A DNA stretch of 22,705 bases from a virus. The stretch is taken from IMG/VR virus record IMGVR_UViG_3300017917_000504, positions 1 to 22,705 of that record. One strand, written 5' to 3'. Shown here piece after piece: positions 740-21,460 of this stretch. The notes under the pieces were generated by a model. That model saw only the letters and a list, made by a program, of their open reading frames with translations. It was not told where the DNA came from and made no database searches. How positions within the stretch are numbered: the stretch's first letter is position 1; every line of letters starts with the position of its first letter. Made by a program: the position numbers and the translations under genes.

Positions 740-1534
740 ATGCAAGACCATTATAAAGTATTAGGCGTTGATCGCAACGCTAGTCCAGATGCTATTAAAA
801 AGGCTTATCGTAAACTGGCCAGTTTATACCACCCCGACAAAGAAGGTGGTAGCAAAACTAAATTCCAGGAAGTCGAAGCCGCATACCGCACACTGTCGGA
901 TCCTAACCTACGAGCACAGTATGATAACCCTAACCCATTTGGGGGACAACCCGGGTTTGGTGGATTTAGGCAACAAGAATTCGATCTTGATAGTATATTC
1001 AGTATGTTTGGTGCTAGATTTCAACATCCAGGATTTCAAGCCAGACAGCGAGCACAAATGCAATTATGGGTCACTATACAAGATGTAGCTCGTGGTGGTC
1101 CAAGAACTATTACTGTAGGAACTCAACATGGCACACAAGCAGTTGAGATCGAAATACCTAAAGGTATTGATGACGGCGATTCAATACAATATCCAAACAT
1201 AGGTCCAGGAGGAATGGATTTAATTGTCACGTTTAGAATTCATCCTAATCCAAAATATCATCGCAGTGGTCAAAATATTATCATGGAACAAAATGTTAGT
1301 ATTTGGGATTTGATACTTGGCAGTGAAATTACTATAACAGATTTATTAAGTAATCAATTACAATTAACTATTCCGCCAGGAACACAACCCGGAACTCTTC
1401 TTAGAATGAGAGAACGTGGTATGCCTCATCGTTCAGGACCAACAGGAGATTTGCTAGTAAAAATACAGGCTACTATTCCAAAAACAATTGCCCCAGAAAT
1501 ATTAGAGGCTATTGAGAAAAATAGAAGCCAATAA
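740..1534 (+). CDS. DnaJ/CbpA-type J-domain co-chaperone
   Basis: A 264-residue Hsp40. The J domain spans residues 3-65 (DHYKVLGVDRNAS) with the essential HPD motif at 31-33, which stimulates DnaK ATPase. A Gly/Phe-rich linker (about 66-85) and a C-terminal beta-rich substrate-binding region follow. There is no Cys-rich zinc finger, so the architecture is CbpA/type-B like. It would work with host DnaK, since no DnaK is seen here. The ATG at 740 begins directly before the J domain and lacks a clear Shine-Dalgarno; the transcript from the promoter at 682-710 would have only a short leader. The next gene, after 63 bases, is a ClpA-type unfoldase, suggesting a joint effect on host or phage protein quality control. 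The J-domain call is secure. Confidence 0.9.
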   Translation: MQDHYKVLGVDRNASPDAIKKAYRKLASLYHPDKEGGSKTKFQEVEAAYRTLSDPNLRAQYDNPNPFGGQPGFGGFRQQEFDLDSIFSMFGARFQHPGFQARQRAQMQLWVTIQDVARGGPRTITVGTQHGTQAVEIEIPKGIDDGDSIQYPNIGPGGMDLIVTFRIHPNPKYHRSGQNIIMEQNVSIWDLILGSEITITDLLSNQLQLTIPPGTQPGTLLRMRERGMPHRSGPTGDLLVKIQATIPKTIAPEILEAIEKNRSQ

Positions 1535-1537
1535 TCG

Positions 1538-1566
1538 TTGTTTAATTTGTACCAATACTATATACT
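1538..1566 (+). promoter_or_regulatory. Sigma70-like promoter for the clpA-like gene
   Basis: TTGTTT (1538-1543), 17-base spacer, TATACT (1561-1566). It lies in the 63-base gap before the unfoldase ATG. The -35 match is weak (3 of 6), the -10 match good (5 of 6). Confidence 0.45.
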
Positions 1567-1597
1567 TGTAGTAAGATTTTTATAACTAAAAGGCCTT

Positions 1598-3883
1598 ATG
1601 CAAAACAATCCAGAAATTGAACAGATTATTGAATCTGCGGTTAAAATAGCTCGTACCAAACAACATGAATATGTTCTTACCGAACATGTGCTTTTAGCCA
1701 TGATTCAGCATATTCCGTTTCGTAAAGTTTTAGAAAAATTTGGAACAGATTTAGAATTACTTGAATCAGAACTTGACAGCTATCTTGATAATTTGCACAG
1801 TCTAGTTAAACCTAATAAAGATGTGCAACCTCGTAAAACCAATGCACTTGAAAGAACTTTCAATCGTGCATTAACTCAAGTATTGTTTACTGGCCGTAGA
1901 ACTATTACAGTATTAGATTTGTATTTGGCTATGATGTCAGAAACTAACAGCCATGCACACTACTATTTGTTAAAGTATGGAATTAAAAAATCTGAGTTTG
2001 CTGAGTTTTATCAGAAACATTATAATCATGCTGATGTAAAAATTTCTGATCAACAAGCTAATGAAATATTAGAAGAACATTGTACAAATCTTACCGCTTT
2101 AGCTAGAGACAATAAACTAGAACCAATGATTGGTCGTAGTACAGAGTTAGAAGAAATGATTGCTGTGTTAGCACGTCGCTTTAAGGCCAACGTGTTAATG
2201 GTCGGCGATCCTGGTGTAGGTAAAACTGCTATTGTCGAAGGCCTAGCACAAGAAATTATGGCTGGCCGTGTTCCTGAATTCCTTAAAGGACACGAAGTAT
2301 GGGGACTTGAAATTGGATCACTGTTAGCAGGATCCAAGTATCGCGGCGAGTTTGAAGAAAAGTTTAAACAAGTTATCACTGCACTAGAGTCTAAAAAGAA
2401 ATGCATTTTGTTTGTTGACGAAGCTCACACGATGAAAGGTGCTGGAACTTCTAGCAACAGTACACTAGACTTTGCCAATATGTTAAAGCCGGCTATTACT
2501 AAAGGTAATTTAAAAGTAGTAGCGTCAACTACTTGGGAAGAGTACTACGAATCGTTTGAAAAAGATCGCGCACTAATGCGTCGTTTTTATCGTGTTGCTG
2601 TAGATGAACCCGATGCAGAAACTACAGAACAAATTTTAATTGGATTAAGTCCACGTTTAGAACAGTTCCACAATGTCTTAATCGAAACAGAAGCTATTAC
2701 GGCTGCTGTAGACTTGGCCAATCGTTATATTCACGATCGTAAGAATCCAGACAAGTCAATTGATTTAATTGATGCGGCATCGGCACGTGAGCGTGTACAG
2801 GACAAAGGTCTTACTACAATTACTAAAGATTTGATTATGGCGCAGTTAAGTCGTGTCACCGGAGTTCCGTTAGATCGACTACAAAACGAGCGTAGCACAA
2901 AGATTGTAGAACTAGAATCAAATATTAAACAAAAGCTCTATGGACAAGACGAAGCAGTTGATGCGGTGTTAGAGCGTGTTTATATTAACTTCTCTGGCAT
3001 CGGCAACGAGAAAAAACCTGTTGCTAGTTTCTTATTCTTAGGACCTACAGGAACAGGTAAAACAGAACTTGCTAAATTACTTGCTACAAATCTAGACATG
3101 AAATTGTTAAAGTATGACATGTCAGAATATCAAGAGAAGCATACAGTATCTAGTTTAATCGGTGCTCCTCCTGGATATGTTGGCTTTGAAGATGGTAATG
3201 TGGGTGGCGGCAAACTTATTAGTGATGTTAGTAAGAACCCATTTTGCATACTGTTATTTGACGAAATTGAAAAAGCACACCCAGACGTTATTAACATTAT
3301 GCTACAAATGTTAGACGAAGCACGTATTACAAGTGCTAATGGCAAGTCAGTGGACTTAAAGAACGCTATTATTATCATGACTTCAAATTTAGGTGCTCGA
3401 GATAACGAATCTAATAATATCGGTTTTGGACAAAGTTTAGAAAAAACTGGTAGTGAAGACAAAGCAATGAAGGAGTTTTTTAAACCTGAACTACGTAATC
3501 GTATCGATCGAATTTGTAAATTTAATAAACTTGACAAACTTGCTATCAAGAAAATTGTTATTAAATTTATCGACGAGTTGCAAACTAGTTTAACTGCTAA
3601 GGGAATTAAATTAACATTAACCGAATCAGTGATTGATATGCTGGCTGAAAAAGGATATGATCCTAAAATGGGTGCTCGTCCACTTGGTCGCAAAATTGAT
3701 GAATTAATTCGTGTTCCGTTAAGTAAAAAAATCTTATTTGATAGATTAACAGACTGCACAATTCATGCTATTATGAAAGATGATAACGTTGATTTTATGA
3801 TTGAAACGCCAGAACCAAAAGTATTACCAACAGTCAACGAAGACGGGTACATTGTCCTTGATCAATTCAAACCTAAAATTTAA
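1598..3883 (+). CDS. clpA: ClpA-type AAA+ protein unfoldase
   Basis: 761 residues, close to the size of E. coli ClpA (758). An N-terminal Clp-N double repeat (about 1-145) is followed by two AAA+ modules. D1 has Walker A GDPGVGKT at 203-210 and Walker B with DE at 274-275. D2 has Walker A GPTGTGKT at 482-489 and Walker B with DE at 555-556. There is no ClpB-type coiled-coil middle domain. In D2 the tripeptide IGF sits at 608-610, where ClpA carries its ClpP-docking IGL/IGF loop, so the protein looks able to dock on host ClpP. It would unfold substrates by ATP hydrolysis in the cytoplasm. No ClpP or ClpS gene is visible. All catalytic motifs are intact, so this is not a decaying gene. It follows the DnaJ gene and overlaps the start of the next frame. 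Confidence 0.92.
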   Translation: MQNNPEIEQIIESAVKIARTKQHEYVLTEHVLLAMIQHIPFRKVLEKFGTDLELLESELDSYLDNLHSLVKPNKDVQPRKTNALERTFNRALTQVLFTGRRTITVLDLYLAMMSETNSHAHYYLLKYGIKKSEFAEFYQKHYNHADVKISDQQANEILEEHCTNLTALARDNKLEPMIGRSTELEEMIAVLARRFKANVLMVGDPGVGKTAIVEGLAQEIMAGRVPEFLKGHEVWGLEIGSLLAGSKYRGEFEEKFKQVITALESKKKCILFVDEAHTMKGAGTSSNSTLDFANMLKPAITKGNLKVVASTTWEEYYESFEKDRALMRRFYRVAVDEPDAETTEQILIGLSPRLEQFHNVLIETEAITAAVDLANRYIHDRKNPDKSIDLIDAASARERVQDKGLTTITKDLIMAQLSRVTGVPLDRLQNERSTKIVELESNIKQKLYGQDEAVDAVLERVYINFSGIGNEKKPVASFLFLGPTGTGKTELAKLLATNLDMKLLKYDMSEYQEKHTVSSLIGAPPGYVGFEDGNVGGGKLISDVSKNPFCILLFDEIEKAHPDVINIMLQMLDEARITSANGKSVDLKNAIIIMTSNLGARDNESNNIGFGQSLEKTGSEDKAMKEFFKPELRNRIDRICKFNKLDKLAIKKIVIKFIDELQTSLTAKGIKLTLTESVIDMLAEKGYDPKMGARPLGRKIDELIRVPLSKKILFDRLTDCTIHAIMKDDNVDFMIETPEPKVLPTVNEDGYIVLDQFKPKI

Positions 3884-7397: not shown

Positions 7398-7425
7398 AGA
7401 GCCGCTTTGACAGCGGCTTTTGTTT
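7398..7425 (+). terminator. Rho-independent terminator
   Basis: GCCGCT (7401-7406) pairs with AGCGGC (7412-7417) across a 5-base loop; the stem extends outward through A/U and G/U pairs and is followed by TTTTGTTT. It separates the glycosyltransferase unit from the large cassette. Confidence 0.85.
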
Positions 7426-7429
7426 ATCC

Positions 7430-7437
7430 AATAAATA
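7430..7437 (+). promoter_or_regulatory. T4-late-like promoter box for the 1436-residue gene
   Basis: AATAAATA ending 5 bases before the ATG at 7443, directly after a terminator, so the gene needs its own promoter. There is no Shine-Dalgarno, and by T4 spacing the first transcribed base would fall on or next to the ATG. Confidence 0.5.
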
Positions 7438-7442
7438 CAGTC

Positions 7443-10400
7443 ATGAATATTCAAGAATTAGACGCCTATAACCTTGACGATGCTGTCAAATTTAATGATC
7501 GGTTAAACCCTGCACTGTGGAACCGCACGGAACATTTAAAGCCTGAAATTAAAGCACAATTACTATTGATTGCTGAAGATTTCCGCGAAAGTTTAGGCAT
7601 TAAAGATCTAGATTTAAAAGATATTACTATTAGTGGTTCTAACGCCGCTTACACTTACACACCTAATTCAGATATTGATTTACACCTAGTTGTTGATCAA
7701 CCCGAAGATCCTATCTACCGTGAATTGTTTGATGCTAAAAAAGCACAGTATAATGATACACACGATATTAAAATTAAAGGATTTGATGTTGAAGTATATG
7801 TAGAAGCTGCAGATAAACCTCCAATCAGTCAAGGCACTTATAGTTTATTACAGGACAAGTGGGTGCAGGTTCCTAAGCGTGTTAAAGCCGACGTAGATGA
7901 TACTGCTACTCGCAATAAGTTTGAAACTATAGGACATGCCGTTGAACGTGCGATTAAGACTGGCAGTCGTGAAAAAATGGATCGCATGGCTCGCAAGATC
8001 AAGCGTATGCGTCAAACAGGATTAGATCAACACGGCGAGTTTGGTCCTGAAAATCTAGCGTTTAAAATGTTGCGTAGTCAGGGTGTATTGAAACAATTAC
8101 ATGATGCACGTGTTGAAGCAAAGAATAAAGAGCTTAGTTTAAAAGAACGTCGTCGACCACACTCAGTATTTACTTATGGTTTTAAACATGAGTCAGCGGT
8201 TGACGAAGGTAGTGCAGGTGTTAAACCAGTCACATTAACTCCGGACGGCCTAAGTCCAGATACTGTAATGATTGTTAGTGATGTTAATGATCAATCTTCT
8301 GATGAAGAAATATTAAAAGATTTTATTGACTTTTGCTCTAAGGAATTGAAACTCGAGCAAATGCCTACAATTAAGTTAAAGCGCGATCCACAATGGCCTG
8401 TGGTGCATAAAACATTTGGTCGTTATACAAATGATAAAAACTTATTAGAAGTTGCTTGGGGACAACGTCACATCATGGACGTACTTCGCACAGTAGCACA
8501 CGAACTAACACATAAACATCAACATGAACGTGATGGTGATGCTATGGGTGCTGATGCCGGCGAAACGGGTAGCAAGTGGGAAAATGAAGCCAATGCTCGC
8601 GCTGGTATTTTGATGCGTGATTATGCTAGACTACATCCTGATTACTTTGCTGTAGGTCAAGTAGAAGAATTGCACGGCGACGAAGTTAACGAGTCGGCTT
8701 CTGGATACATTCCAACAAAAAAGCAAGCTAAAGATCCACGTTTCGTAATGGCCCTGACTAAAGATGTACAACCGGGGGCGGTGGGTAAAGAAGCCAACAA
8801 GTTAAAACTTAAAACTAACAGCCAAGGCAAACCACAGCAGTTACGTGCTGATGGCTTGTTTGAGGATTTAATGCTTGAATATAAAAAGTTTAAACAAGCA
8901 AATGAAGACTACAGCCCAGATACTCCTCCGGGACCTGAATCTAAACCTACCATGCCTAAAGGTACTGTGCGTGTAGACGTTAGTGACATGTACGATTGGT
9001 ACAAACTAGGTAAGAATATTAGCAATCTTAAAGCGGCAGATAAGTCACAATTCGGCAAGGGACCTCCTAGCACTATAGTTTCGTTTGGTGACGAAGATAC
9101 TGAACACAAGTATATTAAAGATTTAGAAAACTTAGGTTTAACTACTACAGACATTGATCCTTTAGATCCTAAAAAACCTAAGGGTATTTCACGTCAGAAA
9201 GTAGATCCTACTTACAATGTAAATGAAAGCGAAGAGCTCGACGAAGTGCGTATGGCTCCTAGTAACCTGCGTCAGTTTGCTGACAGCGAGGCAGCCGAAG
9301 GCATACAAGCGGGCTTTGAAGCAGAGTTGATCTTCCGCGACACAGAAGGTGACAGTGATTCGGATGACTTAGAACCTGACTATGATTACGATGAGCGTTG
9401 CCGCAGTCTAAGTCAAGTTGTTGATTTCTTCAGTAACGACGACTGGGGCTATGGACTTAGCCGTCGTGAGCGTGATGAGTTGTCCGAAAAGTTAGACGAA
9501 GCCTACTACGAGTGGCATGACGAACAAATGTATGAAGCATGGCAGGACGAGCGTGATGAAAAAGTTCGCGACCTACTGTTAGAAGAACAGCCTTGGACAG
9601 AGCGTTTGCATGCTATGTTAGTAGATGGTATGGAGTTGTCCGATGAAGAAGCTGAAAAGATTATTGAGTTAGGCGAAGCTCGCAAAAATGGCAAAGGCAA
9701 GCCCGGTGAAGAATACACCGAAGAAGAGCTAGAAATGCTGGCCAAGTATAGTGAAGCTGCCTCGGATGCTGACTTAATCTTAGACGAAGAAGTTGAAAGC
9801 AGTATTGCTGCAGAAGATAAGATTTATGATAGTGCGTTAGATCTTTTCCGCGACGACTTTTATATTGGCGATGATTCTGGATTTTTTAGTGATGTTGGTT
9901 GGCGCTGGATGTCAGATATTGCTGATGAATTTAATTTAAGCTGGCCATATTATACCGGTGGTAGCAACGGTGGCGATCGTGATTGGGATAGTATTGCTGA
10001 CAGTTTAAGCGATGCTATTGATATGCCAGTGCGTGTAAGTTCTGGCTATCACCAAATGACACGCAAGCCGGGCGTATGGATTGTAGAACCTGATTCTAGT
10101 TTAGAGCCCGATGAGCGCGAAGACGTAGGTTTGGAAATTGTAAGTCCTCCTATGCCACTTAAACAAGCACTGGAAAAACTACAGCAAGTAACCGACTGGG
10201 CCAACGGTCCTGGCAATGCTTATACTAACGATTCAACTGGCCTGCACATGGGTGTAAGTATTCCCTACAAAGGCGGCAATGTTGATTACCTAAAACTAAT
10301 CATGTTCCTAGGTGATGAGTATGTGTTACAGCAGTTTGGTCGTGAGTCAAACACTTACACTAAAGCCGCCATGAAGGAAATACGCAGTCGTGCTGGATCA

Positions 10401-11753
10401 GAGCGTAATGCTACGGCTGTATTGGAATTGTTAAGAAACAACTTAGTAGAGTTAGCCGAGCGTGAATTGGCCCGATCCACCGGCGAAGGCAAATACACAT
10501 CAGCACACAAACAAGGCAAGTATATTGAGTTCCGATCAGCCGGGGGTGACTGGTTAGCTGAAGATAACGCTGATCCAGAAAAGTTACCAGCCACTATGAT
10601 GCGTTATGCTTATGCTATGTATCTAGCAGGTCGTCCAGACTTAGAGCGTAAAGAATACGCTAAGAAGTTATACAAGTTAGTTGCTAACGGTACAGATGAT
10701 TCAACTATGGCACTGTTTAGTCAGTTTGCTACAGGTATGATTGACAAAGATCAACTTAAGAAGCAGTGGGCTGAAAAGACTTTAAGTAAAGAAGAACCTC
10801 GAGCTGTAGGCAAAGACAACTGGGTAGTTGTAGATAAAAGAACTCGACAACCCATGCCTGGTGGCACATACAACGGTTATACTCGTAGCGAAGCACTGGA
10901 GAGAGCCGAAGAAAAATTTGGTGAAATGGGTTGGCGCTTTGACTTAGAACCGCAAAATACTGGTCGCTGGGAAGTTTATCGTGATGATCAAGGTCAAGAA
11001 GAAACACTGGAAATTATCGATGCCAAGGGTAAAGCCGAAGCTGTGGATAAGGCCTATGAAAAATACACCGGAGTTATTCCATTCAAGGTCCGTGCTTATC
11101 ACGGTGAAGATGATCCGGGTCCAAAGAAAGAACCCTCACGTCGTGCTAAGTTGGCTAAACAGATTATTCAAAAGCCAGCTAAACCAAAAGATTATAACTA
11201 TGAAATTGTAAATCTTGGGGATGTAAATCTAGGAGTGGTGGATAAATTTTATGCTGTTGATAAAAAAGATGCTGACGCAACTTTTGATAAATGGTTGCAA
11301 ATGAAAGGTCTACCAAACGATACTAACAATTATGGTTACAGACCACGAAAACAACAAACAGCACAACAGACAGGTAATGCTGATCCAGCGGCATCTAGTG
11401 ATTGGGAAGCTGTATGGCGCCCAACCGGTCGTGTAGTAGATACCCTGGCGCATGCTGATGCTGAACAAGCAACAACCTGGCGCCAAATGGTTATTCGCCA
11501 ACACGGATTCGAAGACAACGGCGATCTTATTATTCGTCGTGCTGGTGAGCAAACTCCTAATGTAGCACAAAACTTCTCAGCACAAACACCGCCCGACGCT
11601 ACACAACAAGTAGGATCCTGGAGCATATATGATGTGACCCTGAACCGCGAAATTGCCAGAATGGACAATGTGTCTTGGCAACAGGCTACAGATCGTGCTG
11701 AAGAACTTGAACGCGGCACAGGACATAACATGAGTGTTAGAGGTTTGAATTAA
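7443..11753 (+). CDS. Giant modular protein: NTase, zincin, amidoligase-like domains and repeats
   Basis: 1436 residues. Residues 20-130 form a polymerase-beta-type nucleotidyltransferase: GSN at 65-67, DID at 77-79 and a third acidic pair DVE at 115-117. A zinc-protease-like domain follows with HELTH at 353-357 and WENEAN at about 379-384. Residues 415-600 hold linker modules (SGYIP, EDYSP, DVSDMYDWYKLG). Residues 620-1080 resemble the glutamine-synthetase-fold amidoligase family: GFEAE at 624-628, GLEIVSPP at 896-903, GLH at 933-935 and EFR at 1029-1031. The tail carries about five 40-70-residue repeats starting at W1127, W1176, Y1253, W1321 and W1393. Possible prohead-protease sites (VDE|G 255, VNE|S 417 and 595) fall between modules. 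This fits a 'polyvalent' protein injected with DNA. The ATG at 7443 is preferred because it follows a late-type box; an upstream TTG frame extension lies in the terminator. Confidence 0.75.
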   Translation: MNIQELDAYNLDDAVKFNDRLNPALWNRTEHLKPEIKAQLLLIAEDFRESLGIKDLDLKDITISGSNAAYTYTPNSDIDLHLVVDQPEDPIYRELFDAKKAQYNDTHDIKIKGFDVEVYVEAADKPPISQGTYSLLQDKWVQVPKRVKADVDDTATRNKFETIGHAVERAIKTGSREKMDRMARKIKRMRQTGLDQHGEFGPENLAFKMLRSQGVLKQLHDARVEAKNKELSLKERRRPHSVFTYGFKHESAVDEGSAGVKPVTLTPDGLSPDTVMIVSDVNDQSSDEEILKDFIDFCSKELKLEQMPTIKLKRDPQWPVVHKTFGRYTNDKNLLEVAWGQRHIMDVLRTVAHELTHKHQHERDGDAMGADAGETGSKWENEANARAGILMRDYARLHPDYFAVGQVEELHGDEVNESASGYIPTKKQAKDPRFVMALTKDVQPGAVGKEANKLKLKTNSQGKPQQLRADGLFEDLMLEYKKFKQANEDYSPDTPPGPESKPTMPKGTVRVDVSDMYDWYKLGKNISNLKAADKSQFGKGPPSTIVSFGDEDTEHKYIKDLENLGLTTTDIDPLDPKKPKGISRQKVDPTYNVNESEELDEVRMAPSNLRQFADSEAAEGIQAGFEAELIFRDTEGDSDSDDLEPDYDYDERCRSLSQVVDFFSNDDWGYGLSRRERDELSEKLDEAYYEWHDEQMYEAWQDERDEKVRDLLLEEQPWTERLHAMLVDGMELSDEEAEKIIELGEARKNGKGKPGEEYTEEELEMLAKYSEAASDADLILDEEVESSIAAEDKIYDSALDLFRDDFYIGDDSGFFSDVGWRWMSDIADEFNLSWPYYTGGSNGGDRDWDSIADSLSDAIDMPVRVSSGYHQMTRKPGVWIVEPDSSLEPDEREDVGLEIVSPPMPLKQALEKLQQVTDWANGPGNAYTNDSTGLHMGVSIPYKGGNVDYLKLIMFLGDEYVLQQFGRESNTYTKAAMKEIRSRAGSERNATAVLELLRNNLVELAERELARSTGEGKYTSAHKQGKYIEFRSAGGDWLAEDNADPEKLPATMMRYAYAMYLAGRPDLERKEYAKKLYKLVANGTDDSTMALFSQFATGMIDKDQLKKQWAEKTLSKEEPRAVGKDNWVVVDKRTRQPMPGGTYNGYTRSEALERAEEKFGEMGWRFDLEPQNTGRWEVYRDDQGQEETLEIIDAKGKAEAVDKAYEKYTGVIPFKVRAYHGEDDPGPKKEPSRRAKLAKQIIQKPAKPKDYNYEIVNLGDVNLGVVDKFYAVDKKDADATFDKWLQMKGLPNDTNNYGYRPRKQQTAQQTGNADPAASSDWEAVWRPTGRVVDTLAHADAEQATTWRQMVIRQHGFEDNGDLIIRRAGEQTPNVAQNFSAQTPPDATQQVGSWSIYDVTLNREIARMDNVSWQQATDRAEELERGTGHNMSVRGLN

Positions 11754-11754
11754 C

Positions 11755-13560
11755 ATGCGAGCTCAGGAGTTTATTGTTGAAGCTGAACAGCGTCAAATGG
11801 AGCCTGAGTTATACGAAGAGGTTCCTAACTCAATTTTAAAAAAAGCTGTACAAGCGGCACTACCCGGAGTTAAACTACAATTTAGAAACACTCCTGAAGG
11901 TTACTTGAATGTGACCAATGATGATGATTCTGTTCGTCTCGACATTGGCATGAGCATCTACGACAGCGAGTTAAGTTTTAACATTGAAAATGCTTATCTA
12001 ACCAAGCATGCCAAGGGCGGTGCAATGACCGCAATTATTGCCAATGCCTTTGCACTAGCAGAAAAGAAATATGGAATACCTCGTGCTCGTTCCTTGAATA
12101 TAGAACAGGATCGCAGTCACGGTGTATGGCAACATATTGCCAACAAACTTGGTTTAGAATATTCAGCACATCAAATTGGCGAGTCAGCAGAATCAATACA
12201 AGAATCTGTACATGCTTACCATGGCACATTTCAACCTACCTTAACTCGGTTTAATGCACTCAGTCACTTTGGCACACTACAAGCCGCAGAAGATCGCTTG
12301 AAAGAAAAAGCTCGCAGAGAGAAAATCAAAGATCCTGGACGTGTTTATGAAGTTGTACTAGATATTAAAAATCCGTTCATAGCCAAAGACTTTGCTGGCG
12401 TACACAGCCCTACACATTTTGTGTTTGATCTTAAAAGCAAAAAGTTAATCAGCCAAGAAGAATTATCAGCAATAAACCAGCACATGGGAACACCAAAGCA
12501 AGCCAAATTACTAATTAAAAAATTGCGTGAACTAGGATTTGACAGTATTGCTTACAAAAACAAATACGAAGATAAAGGTAGCACAAGTTATGTTATCTTA
12601 GATCCTAGTCAAGTAGTAAGTGTTCGTCCTTTAAAACAAAAGGAAGCAGTCACTGAAGCCAGCATACCTGATGAGATAGAAGATTTCCTGTACGACTTAA
12701 CGCCAGAAGATGTAGGTGTAGAAGAGTTTGGCCCTTATCGTGTGCATTACGAAGGCTTTACAGATGATTGCCAAAGTAGTAGTGACTACTGTGTTAATCC
12801 TGAAGCAGTTTATCAACAAGTGTTTGCTGATCATATTGCTAGAGAAGGCGGTCGCAGGCCTATAGAACAAAACTTTACCGGCGATGAAGATTATCCAATA
12901 CTGTACAGTATCTTTAAGATTCCACGTCAAGTAAAAGAACGTGCAGAACGTTCTAGAGATGCTATTGAAAACATAGTGACTATGGGCAACATAGATGATT
13001 ACTTTGTTAGATCTACCGATATTGATAAAATAGGATACAGTGCTCATCAAGACTTTGGTCGTGCACCAGATATTGGAGACCCTGACTATGATCCCGATGC
13101 ACTGCCAAAAAAGAAAGGTCGCCCAGCACTGTGGTTCTATCCTGCTAGTTATTATCTTAAACATAAAGATTTGTTTGCTGGTGGTCGTCCTTATATCTGG
13201 TTAGTTAAACGTCGCCCTAATGCGTATCTACAGCCTACACAAGGAGCGACTCGACCTGAAGCTCCTAAAGGCATGGTCCGTGCTGGCCTGATGCATAACG
13301 AATCTGGTGTGCCGGTTGCTGTATTTTTCCGTCCCGAATTTGATGTTGTAGATCGTTGGCATGAACCTAAACAAGTAAAAGAAAACTTTGCTGATGGTAA
13401 AGTCAAAGGCAAAAGTCGTCCTGGACGTGTTAAACGTGCTGGTGCAAGTTGTAAAGGCTCAGTATCTAGTTTGCGAGCTAAAGCTAAGAAGGCAGGCGGT
13501 GAGCGTGGTAAAATGTATCACTGGTGTGCAAATATGAAGTCGGGTCGTAGCAAGAAATAA
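11755..13560 (+). CDS. Putative injected internal head protein with ADP-ribosyltransferase-like domain
   Basis: 601 residues. The N-terminus MRAQEFIVEA closely resembles the T4 internal-protein capsid-targeting peptide (MKTYQEFIAEA), including an I-x-E|A cleavage site after residue 9. Residues 20-140 may be a degenerate acetyltransferase-like fold (GGAMTAIIANAFALAEKKYG, then VWQHIANKLGLEY). Residues 152-293 resemble ADP-ribosyltransferases of phage polyvalent proteins: AYHGT at 154-158, SHFGT at 170-174, a strand VYEVVLDIKNPF and YVILDPSQVVSV. It would use NAD+ to modify a host target. Sites IQE|S (150) and VTE|A (301) flank this domain. The last 50 residues are basic with C566, H589, W590 and C591. 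The start is one base after the previous stop (TAACATG), so coupling is likely. ART catalytic residues cannot be fixed without a structure. Confidence 0.7.
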   Translation: MRAQEFIVEAEQRQMEPELYEEVPNSILKKAVQAALPGVKLQFRNTPEGYLNVTNDDDSVRLDIGMSIYDSELSFNIENAYLTKHAKGGAMTAIIANAFALAEKKYGIPRARSLNIEQDRSHGVWQHIANKLGLEYSAHQIGESAESIQESVHAYHGTFQPTLTRFNALSHFGTLQAAEDRLKEKARREKIKDPGRVYEVVLDIKNPFIAKDFAGVHSPTHFVFDLKSKKLISQEELSAINQHMGTPKQAKLLIKKLRELGFDSIAYKNKYEDKGSTSYVILDPSQVVSVRPLKQKEAVTEASIPDEIEDFLYDLTPEDVGVEEFGPYRVHYEGFTDDCQSSSDYCVNPEAVYQQVFADHIAREGGRRPIEQNFTGDEDYPILYSIFKIPRQVKERAERSRDAIENIVTMGNIDDYFVRSTDIDKIGYSAHQDFGRAPDIGDPDYDPDALPKKKGRPALWFYPASYYLKHKDLFAGGRPYIWLVKRRPNAYLQPTQGATRPEAPKGMVRAGLMHNESGVPVAVFFRPEFDVVDRWHEPKQVKENFADGKVKGKSRPGRVKRAGASCKGSVSSLRAKAKKAGGERGKMYHWCANMKSGRSKK

Positions 13561-16014: not shown

Positions 16015-18633
16015 ATGAATTTGTTAGACCTATACGAAGGCCGCGAGCCACATCAACAAGCGATAGATAAGTTAGAACAACGTCGCATTGCAGACTTAGA
16101 AGCACGTATGGACGATTGCGCTCGACGTGGTGATGTAGCAGGTTTCCGTAAAGCCAAAGAAGAACGCGATAGTTATCATACAATCAAAACCAACGAAGCT
16201 GAATTAGATGAAAAGTTAAAAGGTCTTCCTAGTAAGAAACTAGGTTCAGCACGTGACTTAGGCAAGAGTGTTAAAAAGTTTAGAGCACAACGTGGCCTAG
16301 ATGAAGGCGAAATGAAACGTGCCATGGAAAAAGATGCTGAGCGTATGAGTCGTGAAGCATTTTGCAAAAAGTATGGCAACGAAGATTGGGTTTGCGAGTT
16401 CTGGGATAATGTAAACGGTCCTATGGATGAATCTGGTATTGGTCACGATATTGCCGACAAGAAAGAAAAGATTGCACGTGCAACTCCGCAGAGTAAAGCC
16501 GGCGCTGTAGCAAGCACTGTTAAAAATGCTGCTAAGTGGTTGGCTGGTAAAGGTGGTCCTGGTAAAGAAGGCCCAACTTACGAAGCGGCTCAAAAAAAAA
16601 ATTCTGAAAAAGTAAACGAGTATATTTCTGTAGCTTCTGATAAGAATTTTAAAGAAGCAGAACCATACAAAAATTACAAAATCTATGTACGTAAACAGCC
16701 ATTTGGTAACACTGGCCTTTACACAGCACACACAGAAATCGATCGCAAAGGCTTCATGGAAAAGGGCACTTCACCCGAAGAAGCTGTCCAAGCAATACGC
16801 GACAAGATTGACTTTGTATTAAACGCACAAAAGAAAGTTACAGGCTCGAGTACTATTGACTTCAATGTTAAATTTGCCACAGACTTGTTAGCTGATCCTA
16901 AGCAAACTTTCTACGCTAAACTAGAAAATGTCAACGGTGAACCTAAGTTAGTTATTGCTGGCGATACAGTTGCCAATGATCCTGAGTTGTTGGCCGCAGG
17001 TGACTTTAAACGTAGTGCTGTGCGTAATCAAGTAGATGATCAGGGCCGTGCCACACCATTACCGGGTATTCCGTTGACTGCTAAGAGTTTGCGTGCTGGT
17101 GAATGGATTGCTAATGGTCGTTACACTATCGGTAAAGAAACCCAAGACCGTGATGGTAATCGCGTGTTTGATTTAACTTATCATAGTACAGCACACACCA
17201 AGAGCGATAAACTACGCCTTAATCAGCCAGCATTTACATTAGGCACAACTCGTGACGTTGACGAAGATAAGGCACGTGATTTAACCGCGGCTGTGATGCT
17301 TAAAAAAGCACATGCGGCATTTCCTAGTGCAAAAGATGCCACAGAAGCATTAGCATTGTGGATTGCTGACAAAGAGCAACGCGATGTTAATCGTTTAGAA
17401 AAAGAAAACGAGCAAGAAGAAGAAATGATTGCTCGTATTATAGATCAATTAAAATCAAAAGAAGTCGACGAAGGTTGGAGCGATGCTATAGTTGCTCGTA
17501 GAACTGGTCGTCCACGCACACCATATTCAATCTATATCAAAGGCCGGAAGTGGAAAGACTTTGAAAACGAAGATCATGCCGAGAATGTAGCAAATAAATT
17601 ACGTGCTAAATTTAAAGCCGAAGGCAAAGATCCTAGTGTTATTACTATTGCTCCTACCGACTATGATAAAGGTATGGACGAAGCTGCCAATCCAGCACAG
17701 CAGGCCGCCATTGCTATTGCTAAGAAAAAAGAACAAGGCGTAACAGAGGACACAGGTTCATGGATTGTGTATGATCCTGAGACCAAGCAGATCAAAAAAC
17801 GTTTTAAGACACACACTGCCGGCAAGAGTTATGCCCAAACACACAAGTTAGGCTTTGCCAGTAGTGAATATTACTTTGACAATATTAAAACGGCTGTAAC
17901 AGCAGAAGGTATGACAGATTTTCAAAAGCGTCGCCAGCGTGAGCGTGACATAGATGCTGGTCGGCCTGTAGCACGTCAACGCCCAAGTAAGCAGACTGAC
18001 TACCAGAAGCGTCGTGCTCAGGATCGTAAGGACATGGAGTTAGGCGAGGAAAAGACACGCTTGGATCCTAAGTGCTGGAAGGGTAAGAAGATTGGTACGC
18101 CTAAGACTAAGATGAAAGGCGGAGTTCGTGTTAATAACTGTGTGCCTGCTGAATCCGTTGAAGAGGAAGCCAAAAAAGGTCTTTACTACTATGTAAACAA
18201 GCGTAAGAAAGCTGGCACAAGTAGAGATAAAGATGATCCTCGCGCACCTTCGGCACAAGACTGGAAAAATGCAGCCAAGACTGCTAAAAAAGAATCAGTC
18301 GAAGAAGAGTGGAGTGAAAAATACAAACGCAGTATCGATTGCTCACATCCTAAAGGCTTTTCACAAAAAGCTCACTGTGCTGGTCGTAAGAAGAACGAAG
18401 GTATGTTTAGCACATTAGGTGAAGACAACGAAGCTCGCGATGCAGTTGAATCAGCAATTATACGTCGTATCTTAGTTGCACATAAAGACTTATTACAAAA
18501 GTTTGGTCCACAAAAAGTTATGGATGCAGCTTCTGCTATTGCTGACGATCATGCAGATGTAGAAGAAATTGGTACTAGTGATGTTAGTGCTTACGTTCAT
18601 GAAGTCGAACGCTACTTAGCAATGAATCACTAA
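16015..18633 (+). CDS. Large multi-module protein, candidate packaged polyprotein
   Basis: 872 residues, very charged, behind a good Shine-Dalgarno (AAGGA). MNLLDLYEGRE has a perfect L-x-E|G site after residue 8. It then looks like beads on a string: a Lys/Arg-rich helical region (10-135), SGIGHDIADKKEKIARATPQ (from 140), beta-alpha modules starting near Y221, Y504 and W583, AANPAQQAAIAIAKKK (from 557), a basic DFQKRRQRERDID region, a C687-W688 to C709 peptide, a C776 to C788 peptide, and a helical end (796-872). Junctions often show hydrophobic-x-E|[SGA]: MDE|S 139, VDE|G 486, MDE|A 556; weaker TAE|G 631, PAE|S 713, KNE|G 795. No enzyme motif is recognised. Cleavage in the prohead would yield many small basic peptides. 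Inference from pattern only. Confidence 0.6.
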   Translation: MNLLDLYEGREPHQQAIDKLEQRRIADLEARMDDCARRGDVAGFRKAKEERDSYHTIKTNEAELDEKLKGLPSKKLGSARDLGKSVKKFRAQRGLDEGEMKRAMEKDAERMSREAFCKKYGNEDWVCEFWDNVNGPMDESGIGHDIADKKEKIARATPQSKAGAVASTVKNAAKWLAGKGGPGKEGPTYEAAQKKNSEKVNEYISVASDKNFKEAEPYKNYKIYVRKQPFGNTGLYTAHTEIDRKGFMEKGTSPEEAVQAIRDKIDFVLNAQKKVTGSSTIDFNVKFATDLLADPKQTFYAKLENVNGEPKLVIAGDTVANDPELLAAGDFKRSAVRNQVDDQGRATPLPGIPLTAKSLRAGEWIANGRYTIGKETQDRDGNRVFDLTYHSTAHTKSDKLRLNQPAFTLGTTRDVDEDKARDLTAAVMLKKAHAAFPSAKDATEALALWIADKEQRDVNRLEKENEQEEEMIARIIDQLKSKEVDEGWSDAIVARRTGRPRTPYSIYIKGRKWKDFENEDHAENVANKLRAKFKAEGKDPSVITIAPTDYDKGMDEAANPAQQAAIAIAKKKEQGVTEDTGSWIVYDPETKQIKKRFKTHTAGKSYAQTHKLGFASSEYYFDNIKTAVTAEGMTDFQKRRQRERDIDAGRPVARQRPSKQTDYQKRRAQDRKDMELGEEKTRLDPKCWKGKKIGTPKTKMKGGVRVNNCVPAESVEEEAKKGLYYYVNKRKKAGTSRDKDDPRAPSAQDWKNAAKTAKKESVEEEWSEKYKRSIDCSHPKGFSQKAHCAGRKKNEGMFSTLGEDNEARDAVESAIIRRILVAHKDLLQKFGPQKVMDAASAIADDHADVEEIGTSDVSAYVHEVERYLAMNH

Positions 18634-20386: not shown

Positions 20387-21460
20387 GTGCAATTTAAATT
20401 AACTGATCTATCAATTAAAAGTTATCAGTTATTTGATTCTAAACAGTATCAAGGAAAATACTGTCTAAGTCCTTTTTGCATGATACAAATAGATACTGGT
20501 GGCCATGTGCGTTTGTGCGGTTGTGGTGCTTGGATGCCTATTACTATTGGAAATATTTTAGAAACTCCATTAGTTGAAATATTAGCCAACCCACTAGCAC
20601 AGTCCGTGCGCCAAAGTATTATTGATGGGACTTATCAATATTGCAATGAAAAGGTATGTGGGGTTATTCAAAACGACGGATTGAATACCATAGAAAGTGT
20701 TCCGCCTAATATCAAAACTCTGCTAGAAGATTCATCAAAGTTTCAGATTCCATACGAAATTAGTATTCACGGAGATCCTACTTGCAATCTTAGTTGCCCT
20801 AGTTGTAGGACTCATGTGATTAAAGTTAGCGACGAAGATATTGAAAAGCAAAATAAAATTGGAGAATTAATTTTCAAGAATTTGCTTGGATCTGCTAACG
20901 AACAGACCATGCATGTAATAATCAGCGGCATTGGTGAGATATTTGCAAGTCCTATGTTATTAGAATTTATGAATAGAATAACACTGGACAAATATCCTAA
21001 TATCACCTTTACTATTGCTACTAACGGTTTGCTTTGCGAAAAACGCTGGGATAGAATTCAGCATTTAGAACCAGCAATAAAACGAGTTATAGTTAGTATA
21101 GACGCAACTTGTGCTGAGACTTATGAAAAGATAAGGCGTGGCGGCGAGTGGAGTGTGCTATTACAGAACATGGAATTTCTAAAAAATAAAAAACAGTTAA
21201 ACAATATAAAATTACATACCAGGATGATTGTACAAAACGGTAATTACAAAGAGATTCTAAAGTTCTATGATTTCTCTAAAGAGTTTGATACAGATCTAAT
21301 TGAGTATTCTCGAGTGACCGATTGGGGCACATGGTCTAAAGCTGAGTTTGCTCAAGAAGATGTTTTTAATCCACAACATCCTAATTATGAGGTTGCAAAA
21401 GACCTTATAAATCAAGTAAAATTAAAAACAGATACTTGGTTTGAAGGTAATTTTAGTTAG
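20387..21460 (+). CDS. Radical SAM protein with N-terminal SPASM-like Cys-rich region
   Basis: 357 residues from a GTG directly after the preceding stop. The radical SAM motif CNLSCPSC (C133, C137, C140; CX3CX2C) binds the [4Fe-4S] cluster that cleaves S-adenosylmethionine to a 5'-deoxyadenosyl radical. Support for the TIM-barrel core: VIISGIGEIFASP (the GGE-type strand), FTIATNGLL and VIVSIDATCAETYEKIR. The first 95 residues carry six cysteines (26, 31, 44, 46, 86, 91) with IGNILETPLVEILANP, a SPASM-like auxiliary-cluster pattern, which usually lies at the C-terminus. The substrate is unknown; SPASM enzymes often modify peptides or proteins. It sits between DsbA-like and DNA polymerase genes, apparently transcribed with the former. 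Confidence 0.82.
   Translation: MQFKLTDLSIKSYQLFDSKQYQGKYCLSPFCMIQIDTGGHVRLCGCGAWMPITIGNILETPLVEILANPLAQSVRQSIIDGTYQYCNEKVCGVIQNDGLNTIESVPPNIKTLLEDSSKFQIPYEISIHGDPTCNLSCPSCRTHVIKVSDEDIEKQNKIGELIFKNLLGSANEQTMHVIISGIGEIFASPMLLEFMNRITLDKYPNITFTIATNGLLCEKRWDRIQHLEPAIKRVIVSIDATCAETYEKIRRGGEWSVLLQNMEFLKNKKQLNNIKLHTRMIVQNGNYKEILKFYDFSKEFDTDLIEYSRVTDWGTWSKAEFAQEDVFNPQHPNYEVAKDLINQVKLKTDTWFEGNFS

Follow-up and report, generated by a model that had tools for sequence, protein, structure and literature searches.

Why would a large phage place an ADP-ribosyltransferase (ART)-like domain between other folded modules, and set a protease-like site on either side of it? The question is raised by a gene for a 601-residue protein (Table 1) on a genome fragment of 22,705 bases, the IMG/VR virus record IMGVR_UViG_3300017917_000504, which is referred to in its entirety as the window. 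We consider it quite probable that this gene encodes a polyprotein of packaged effectors from a large T4-like phage, and that the polyprotein is processed by the prohead protease.

Table 1. Positions of the features discussed, in nucleotides of the window. An arrow within a motif marks the candidate cleavage position; residue numbers refer to the protein concerned.
Feature	Positions	Strand	Remarks
Upstream gene, 1448-residue multidomain protein	7407..11753	+	VDE↓G (267), VNE↓S (429), VNE↓S (607)
Gene for the 601-residue polyprotein	11755..13560	+	ORF; folded blocks separated by low-pLDDT linkers
Capsid-targeting-like tag MRAQEFIVE	11755..11781	+	site IVE↓A at E9; ends like MKTYQEFIAE↓A of T4 IPII/IPIII
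GNAT-fold domain and linker, residues 10–150	11782..12204	+	model residues 26–143 align with acetyltransferases, Z ~5–6.5
Two I-x-E↓S sites left of the ART	12181..12204	+	IGE↓S, E143 (12181–12183); IQE↓S, E150 (12202–12204); from the sequence; pLDDT <50 at 141–149
ART-fold domain, residues 151–301	12205..12657	+	PF18760, 25.1 bits; ART-fold chains, Z up to 7.6
VTE↓A site	12649..12660	+	E301 (12655–12657); V-x-E kept in all 12 ART proteins that continue into another module; pLDDT <50 at 297–301
Domain C1a, residues 302–395	12658..12939	+	acidic; ends VKE↓R (E395)
Domain C1b, residues 396–543	12940..13383	+	ART-like fold; ends VKE↓N (E543)
C-terminal tail module NFADG...CANMKSGR	13384..13557	+	basic, pI 11.2

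N-Terminal Tag and Domain Architecture

By sequence, the first nine residues of the protein are a T4-like targeting tag. The T4 internal proteins IPII and IPIII begin with MKTYQEFIAEA and have in common with this tag an EFI core and a hydrophobic-x-Glu end. The strict form of the tag was found in 138 of 1676 unique genes with complete starts, which are otherwise unrelated and in which P1' is mostly Ser, Ala, Asn, Gly, or Asp. Given a start of the form M[RK]xxx[FILVYM][ILVFM]x, residue 9 is Glu in 139 of 270 genes, followed in frequency by Ala with 16. One 349-kb phage contains a tag-like start in about 8 of its 401 genes, and the histogram of its N-termini is little informative. The pattern MRxxEF[IV]xE was absent from all seven cultured genomes searched, namely T4, in which the tag is spaced differently, and six genomes with capsid or module matches.

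Structural models of the protein were obtained with AlphaFold for residues 1–400 (17 sequences, mean pLDDT 82.8) and for residues 391–601 (8 sequences). Structure comparison of these models points to several enzyme-type domains in one chain (GNAT-fold, ART-fold, and ART-like), which is a trait of polyvalent proteins. The full-length protein has no match in cultured phages, and a scan with its N-terminal domain returned no relatives.

The initial annotation had placed an ART-like domain at about residues 152–293. This assignment is borne out by a match of residues 155–290 to the Pfam family ART-PolyVal (PF18760, E = 3.4e-5) and by an ART-fold alignment of residues 149–298. Since the bit score lies below the gathering score of 31.2, we did not file the domain under PF18760. 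Comparison of residues 149–298 with known structures (VIA) returned mostly ART chains with Z scores of 5.3–7.6, and these middling values support an ART fold rather than a function. A chain of the cyanophage A4 pre-ejectosome aligned with the ART region at Z 7.3, and this chain (PDB 9k3a chain B) is the only Foldseek match at E ≤ 0.001. Strand 1 of the domain reads AYHGT and contains H156, which is invariant among three close sequences. Of the residues that define the H-Y-D clade (strand 1 His, strand 2 Tyr, strand 5 Asp), H156 is present, and no Tyr is seen in strand 2 (SHFGT). Membership in the T4 Alt clade was rejected because the R-S-E active site that a passage of PMC5512222 describes for this clade needs an Arg in strand 1. 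If released, the fragment comprising residues 151–301 would have a mass of 17.1 kDa and a pI of 9.6. C1b has no Pfam or PHROGs family match and is possibly a second ART-like domain in the same precursor, as weakly hinted by structure comparison of its model: the 50 VIA matches listed are RES/MbcT/ParT-type toxins and PARPs, with a low best Z of 5.8.

Candidate Cleavage Sites

The three sites that had been named around the ART, IGE↓S at 143, IQE↓S at 150, and VTE↓A at 301, are all present in the translated ORF. That inventory overlooked E9, E395, and E543; in fact, every domain joint of the 601-residue protein has a hydrophobic-x-Glu site. Six [ILV]xE triplets lie at borders (IVE↓A, 9; IGE↓S, 143; IQE↓S, 150; VTE↓A, 301; VKE↓R, 395; VKE↓N, 543) and six inside domains (residues 21, 103, 184, 199, 259, and 324). 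The residue at P1' is Ala, Ser, Gly, Asn, or Asp at five of the six border sites versus none of the six inner sites. The number of [ILV]xE[ASG] motifs in the protein is weak evidence when taken alone (4 versus a shuffle mean of 1.8, P(≥4) = 0.105), and sites flanking both ends of the ART occur in 0.26% of shuffles (0.0026). The motif of T4 gp21 is given as L/I-X-E in a section of PMC9026906. Ile occupies P3 at residues 9, 143, and 150 and Val occupies P3 at residues 301, 395, and 543, so VTE↓A is not an exact T4 motif.

Sites buried in folded structure would speak against the proposed cleavage. In the model of residues 1–400 the pLDDT drops below 50 at residues 1–17, 85–87, 141–149, and 297–301, and the low-pLDDT segments of the second model are, in protein numbering, 391–397, 429–433, 544–553, and 555–563. 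Therefore E9, E143, E301, and E395 fall inside low-confidence linkers, and E150 and E543 at the edge of one. As the model places the sites in predicted linkers and starts the first ART strand at residue 152, the idea of cleavage around the ART withstands this structural check.

ART Context in Related Loci

We compared 15 readable ART proteins, leaving out L093 (a near copy of L086 with the ART start missing) and the remote L100 and L101 (28–29% identity). The ART stands alone in L082, L083, and L098, is joined to the tail in L006, L084, L087, L091, and L097, and to C1a plus tail in L002. It precedes a stretch that by eye is HD-like in L089 and L092, and occurs in other module orders in L085, L086, and L094. 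On its right side, V-x-E↓A/D/N is found in all 12 proteins in which another module follows, and in none of the three that end after the ART (Fisher p 0.002, relatedness not corrected for). On its left side, each of the four internal ARTs is preceded by a motif that is different each time: only the 601-residue protein has IGE↓S and IQE↓S, and the other three have LTE↓D, LEE↓E, and VEE↓E. The ten ART-first proteins start with a short tag without the P1 Glu at its usual place. The expectation that homologues keep the sites while the linkers vary thus holds for the right site, which persists in 12 of 12 proteins despite a linker of variable length; the left sites are not conserved in their exact form.

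Module Joints across Relatives

Similar joints surround the other modules. As a stand-alone domain, C1a follows the N-terminal tag directly in L111–L113 (MRAREFITE↓SLDPEI; SLNPEI in L113); in larger proteins it occupies internal positions and is preceded by LTE↓S, VAE↓A, IEE↓A, or other motifs. An [ILV]xE motif lies upstream of C1a in all 18 proteins and a site to its right in 12 of 16, the remaining two being unreadable at this position. C1b is a tagged stand-alone protein in L005, L007, L051, and L109. The tail module is found in IMG/VR contigs behind many different domains, and only 18 of the 55 tail-bearing proteins with a complete start carry the strict tag. In 67 contexts of the tail joint, P3 is Ile, Leu, Val, or Met in 55, with Val being the commonest, unlike the Leu or Ile of T4; P2 and P4–P6 vary. 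The Glu at P1 and the Asn at P1' are invariant and may belong to the tail itself. A tail-type module makes up most of the at least 590 related viral loci, of which the best 80 were analysed. We found no Pfam, PHROGs, or cultured-phage match for this module, although the low-complexity filter may hide it in the cultured-phage search; the L112 protein and one tagged protein also had no match in cultured phages. A search of genome contigs returned two metagenome-assembled bins only, which do not assign a host.

To define joints independently of the motif, domains of tagged genes were searched without their tags, and where such a domain was found inside a bigger protein, the first post-tag residue was taken as the joint. 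We excluded 16 hits that contained the whole tag including the upstream Met, some of which likely reflect wrong start codons (44/64 before exclusion). This search gave 49 nonredundant joints, and in 31 of them [ILV]xE lies no more than three residues away (-3 to +3), versus 9.5% of random positions (p 4e-20); the motif lies exactly at the joint in 18, and another 18 have no site nearby. The control with genes that lack the strict tag gave 28 of 129, the control motifs [ILV]xD, Q, K, A, and S produced no comparable peak, and Glu motifs with a non-hydrophobic P3 occur at the joint 6 times versus 18 for [ILV]xE. In an alignment of 28 exact joints, P3 is Leu, Val, Met, or Ile in 22 and P1 is Glu in 22 (background for Glu 7%), and tag positions 2, 5, and 6 do not differ from background. 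By these alignments, internal joints keep the processing half of the tag and have lost the targeting half. This pattern matches T4 genetics, in which, according to part of PMC9026906, the main determinants of IPIII targeting are residues 4 and 7, and those of its processing are residues 8 and 10. A test based on all-against-all alignment borders gave only a modest, weak [ILV]xE peak just inside left borders, probably because many of these borders are not true module joints.

A complete tag with its Met (MRANEFISE) was observed inside one open frame in L106 (4632–5627), L107, L108, and L110, resembling a recent gene fusion. At the corresponding joint L112 has just ELTE↓D.

Neighbouring Genes and Protease Genes of Relatives

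The 1448-residue protein encoded upstream has the appearance of another such polyprotein. Relatives have separate genes for its nucleotidyltransferase, zincin-like, and amidoligase parts, and their stand-alone amidoligase genes start with tag variants whose last residues are LKE↓A, IVE↓A, or LTE↓D, at the place occupied by VNE↓S in the window. The zincin-like part contains a HELTH motif and has tagged stand-alone homologues.

Other genes of the window include one for an 872-residue protein with small basic Cys-bearing modules (16015–18633), one of which (EWSEKYKRSIDC..) follows ESVEE here and elsewhere stands right after an N-terminal tag. Adjacent DnaJ-like and ClpB-like Hsp100 genes occupy positions 740–3883, in a phage. 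The protein encoded at 20387–21460 contains CNLSCPSC, appears radical-SAM-like by eye, and adjoins an ORF that by eye is a DNA polymerase-like exonuclease.

A gp21-type S77 protease (PF03420) is encoded by 5 of 18 related contigs, which are all five contigs of at least 191 kb; no S77 match was found in the other 13, which are pieces of 50–130 kb. Four of the five S77-bearing contigs also encode gp23. In the capsid proteins of the large contigs, LKE↓N, LME↓N, LSE↓Q, and VAE↓A are, as judged by eye, candidate cleavage sites ahead of a mature-looking start. The nearest matches of these capsid proteins in cultured phages are from jumbo phages of Vibrio, Sinorhizobium, and Pseudomonas. Neither an S77 nor a head-shell gene was found among the tested ORFs of the 22.7-kb window. 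The 601-residue protein is likely an S77 substrate.

Proposed Processing and Alternative Explanations

In the mechanism that we propose, the first nine residues would act like the capsid-targeting sequence of T4 and direct the precursor to the core of the prohead. As the head matures, a gp21-type S77 protease would cut after Glu at E9, E143 or E150, E301, E395, and E543. The predicted products are the GNAT-fold domain, the ART (residues 151–301), C1a, the second ART-like domain, and the basic tail; these would remain associated with the DNA and accompany it into the host. The joints may be the processing halves of tags from once separate genes, retained upon fusion. The view of the initial annotation that the ART is a releasable part of a packaged precursor agrees with the T4-like tag, the linker sites, the conservation of the right site, and the S77 genes of relatives. 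What changes is the place of the ART, which is not special: since the same type of joint surrounds other modules, its release would be a single instance of a polyprotein scheme that applies more widely. Its arrival in the host as a free domain is our inference.

The same joints could also be relics of recombination, if tagged genes were fused at the tag, the xE motif was left over, and the full-length protein is packaged uncut or simply expressed. The whole tag within a single frame in L106–L108 and L110 shows that fusion through the tag does occur. Relics should decay evenly, yet only P3 and P1 are kept while positions 2, 5, and 6 have reached background, a pattern that cleavage predicts and an inert relic does not. 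Furthermore, the linker to the right of the ART varies in length and still retains V-x-E in 12 of 12 proteins, and we therefore regard this explanation as unlikely. It is still less probable that the sites arise by chance of composition in ordinary acidic interdomain linkers of a protein that acts uncut in the producing cell. The number of sites in this single protein is indeed unremarkable (P = 0.105), but composition accounts neither for the missing joint peak of [ILV]xD/Q/K/A/S, nor for the scarcity of non-hydrophobic-xE (6 versus 18), nor for the preference for Glu at tag residue 9.

Least probable, by a narrow step, is processing by a different protease, for example by the zincin-like domain in the 1448-residue neighbour. 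Its HELTH motif and the tagged stand-alone homologues make it a candidate, and processing of polyvalent proteins by zincins has been proposed in general terms (PMC5512222, in part). Nevertheless, the joint motif resembles the L/I-X-E of gp21 (from a portion of PMC9026906) and is identical at the N-terminal tag, and S77 is present in the largest contigs. 

Returning to cleavage by the prohead protease, we see an even chance that it extends to a modular code of uncultivated T4-like jumbo phages. Any tagged domain could then be fused into an effector polyprotein with only hydrophobic-x-Glu left of its tag, and from each polyprotein the prohead protease would make several enzymes that are injected individually and in a fixed ratio.

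If correct, this scheme would account for the way in which single injected enzymes arise from multidomain polyvalent phage proteins, and would tie such proteins to the T4-type head-maturation protease rather than to built-in zincins. The tag and the hydrophobic-x-Glu joints would form a readable signature for predicting packaged proteins of uncultivated large phages, including many without known function, and this signature yields testable predictions of exact peptide ends.

Comparison with Known Systems

We found no paper in the open-access literature on prohead-protease joints between effector domains. The known parts, namely T4 targeting, gp21 processing, and polyvalent effectors, appear here in a combination not found in the open-access literature searched. 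Polyvalent proteins with ART-PolyVal (Iyer et al. 2017, PMC5512222) are likewise mosaics of enzyme domains that include an ART, and the neighbouring protein described here has zincin-like and amidoligase parts. The excerpts of that paper at hand propose built-in zincins as processors and do not mention prohead-protease joints.

Head and ejection proteins of phiKZ and SPN3US resemble the scheme proposed here, in that many head proteins undergo multiple cuts after Glu by a gp21 relative, as described in parts of PMC9026906 and PMC10052503. However, these cuts remove propeptides and not separate enzyme modules, and the phiKZ motif is S/A-x-E. In the cyanophage A4 pre-ejectosome (PDB 9k3a chain B), segment 1418–1604 aligns with residues 148–295 and is ART-fold-like, but it belongs to a single large ejection protein from a different phage. 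T4 Alt is a packaged ART that gp21 trims at either terminus, according to a passage of PMC9026906, and thus shares with the 601-residue protein an ART with head-protease-type sites on both sides. The flanks of Alt are short propeptides, whereas those of the present ART are other folded modules, and strand 1 contains His here (AYHGT).

The closest parallel is offered by the T4 internal proteins IPI, IPII, and IPIII, which also have a short N-terminal tag (with QEFIxE↓A in IPII and IPIII) and a hydrophobic-x-Glu site that is cut in T4 by gp21, an S77 protease. Another point of likeness is that S77 and gp23 genes occur among the large related contigs. The tag described here is one residue shorter than that of the T4 proteins. 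Furthermore, each T4 internal protein is a small product on its own and is cut once, at the N-terminus, whereas here the motif recurs at every joint of a multidomain protein.
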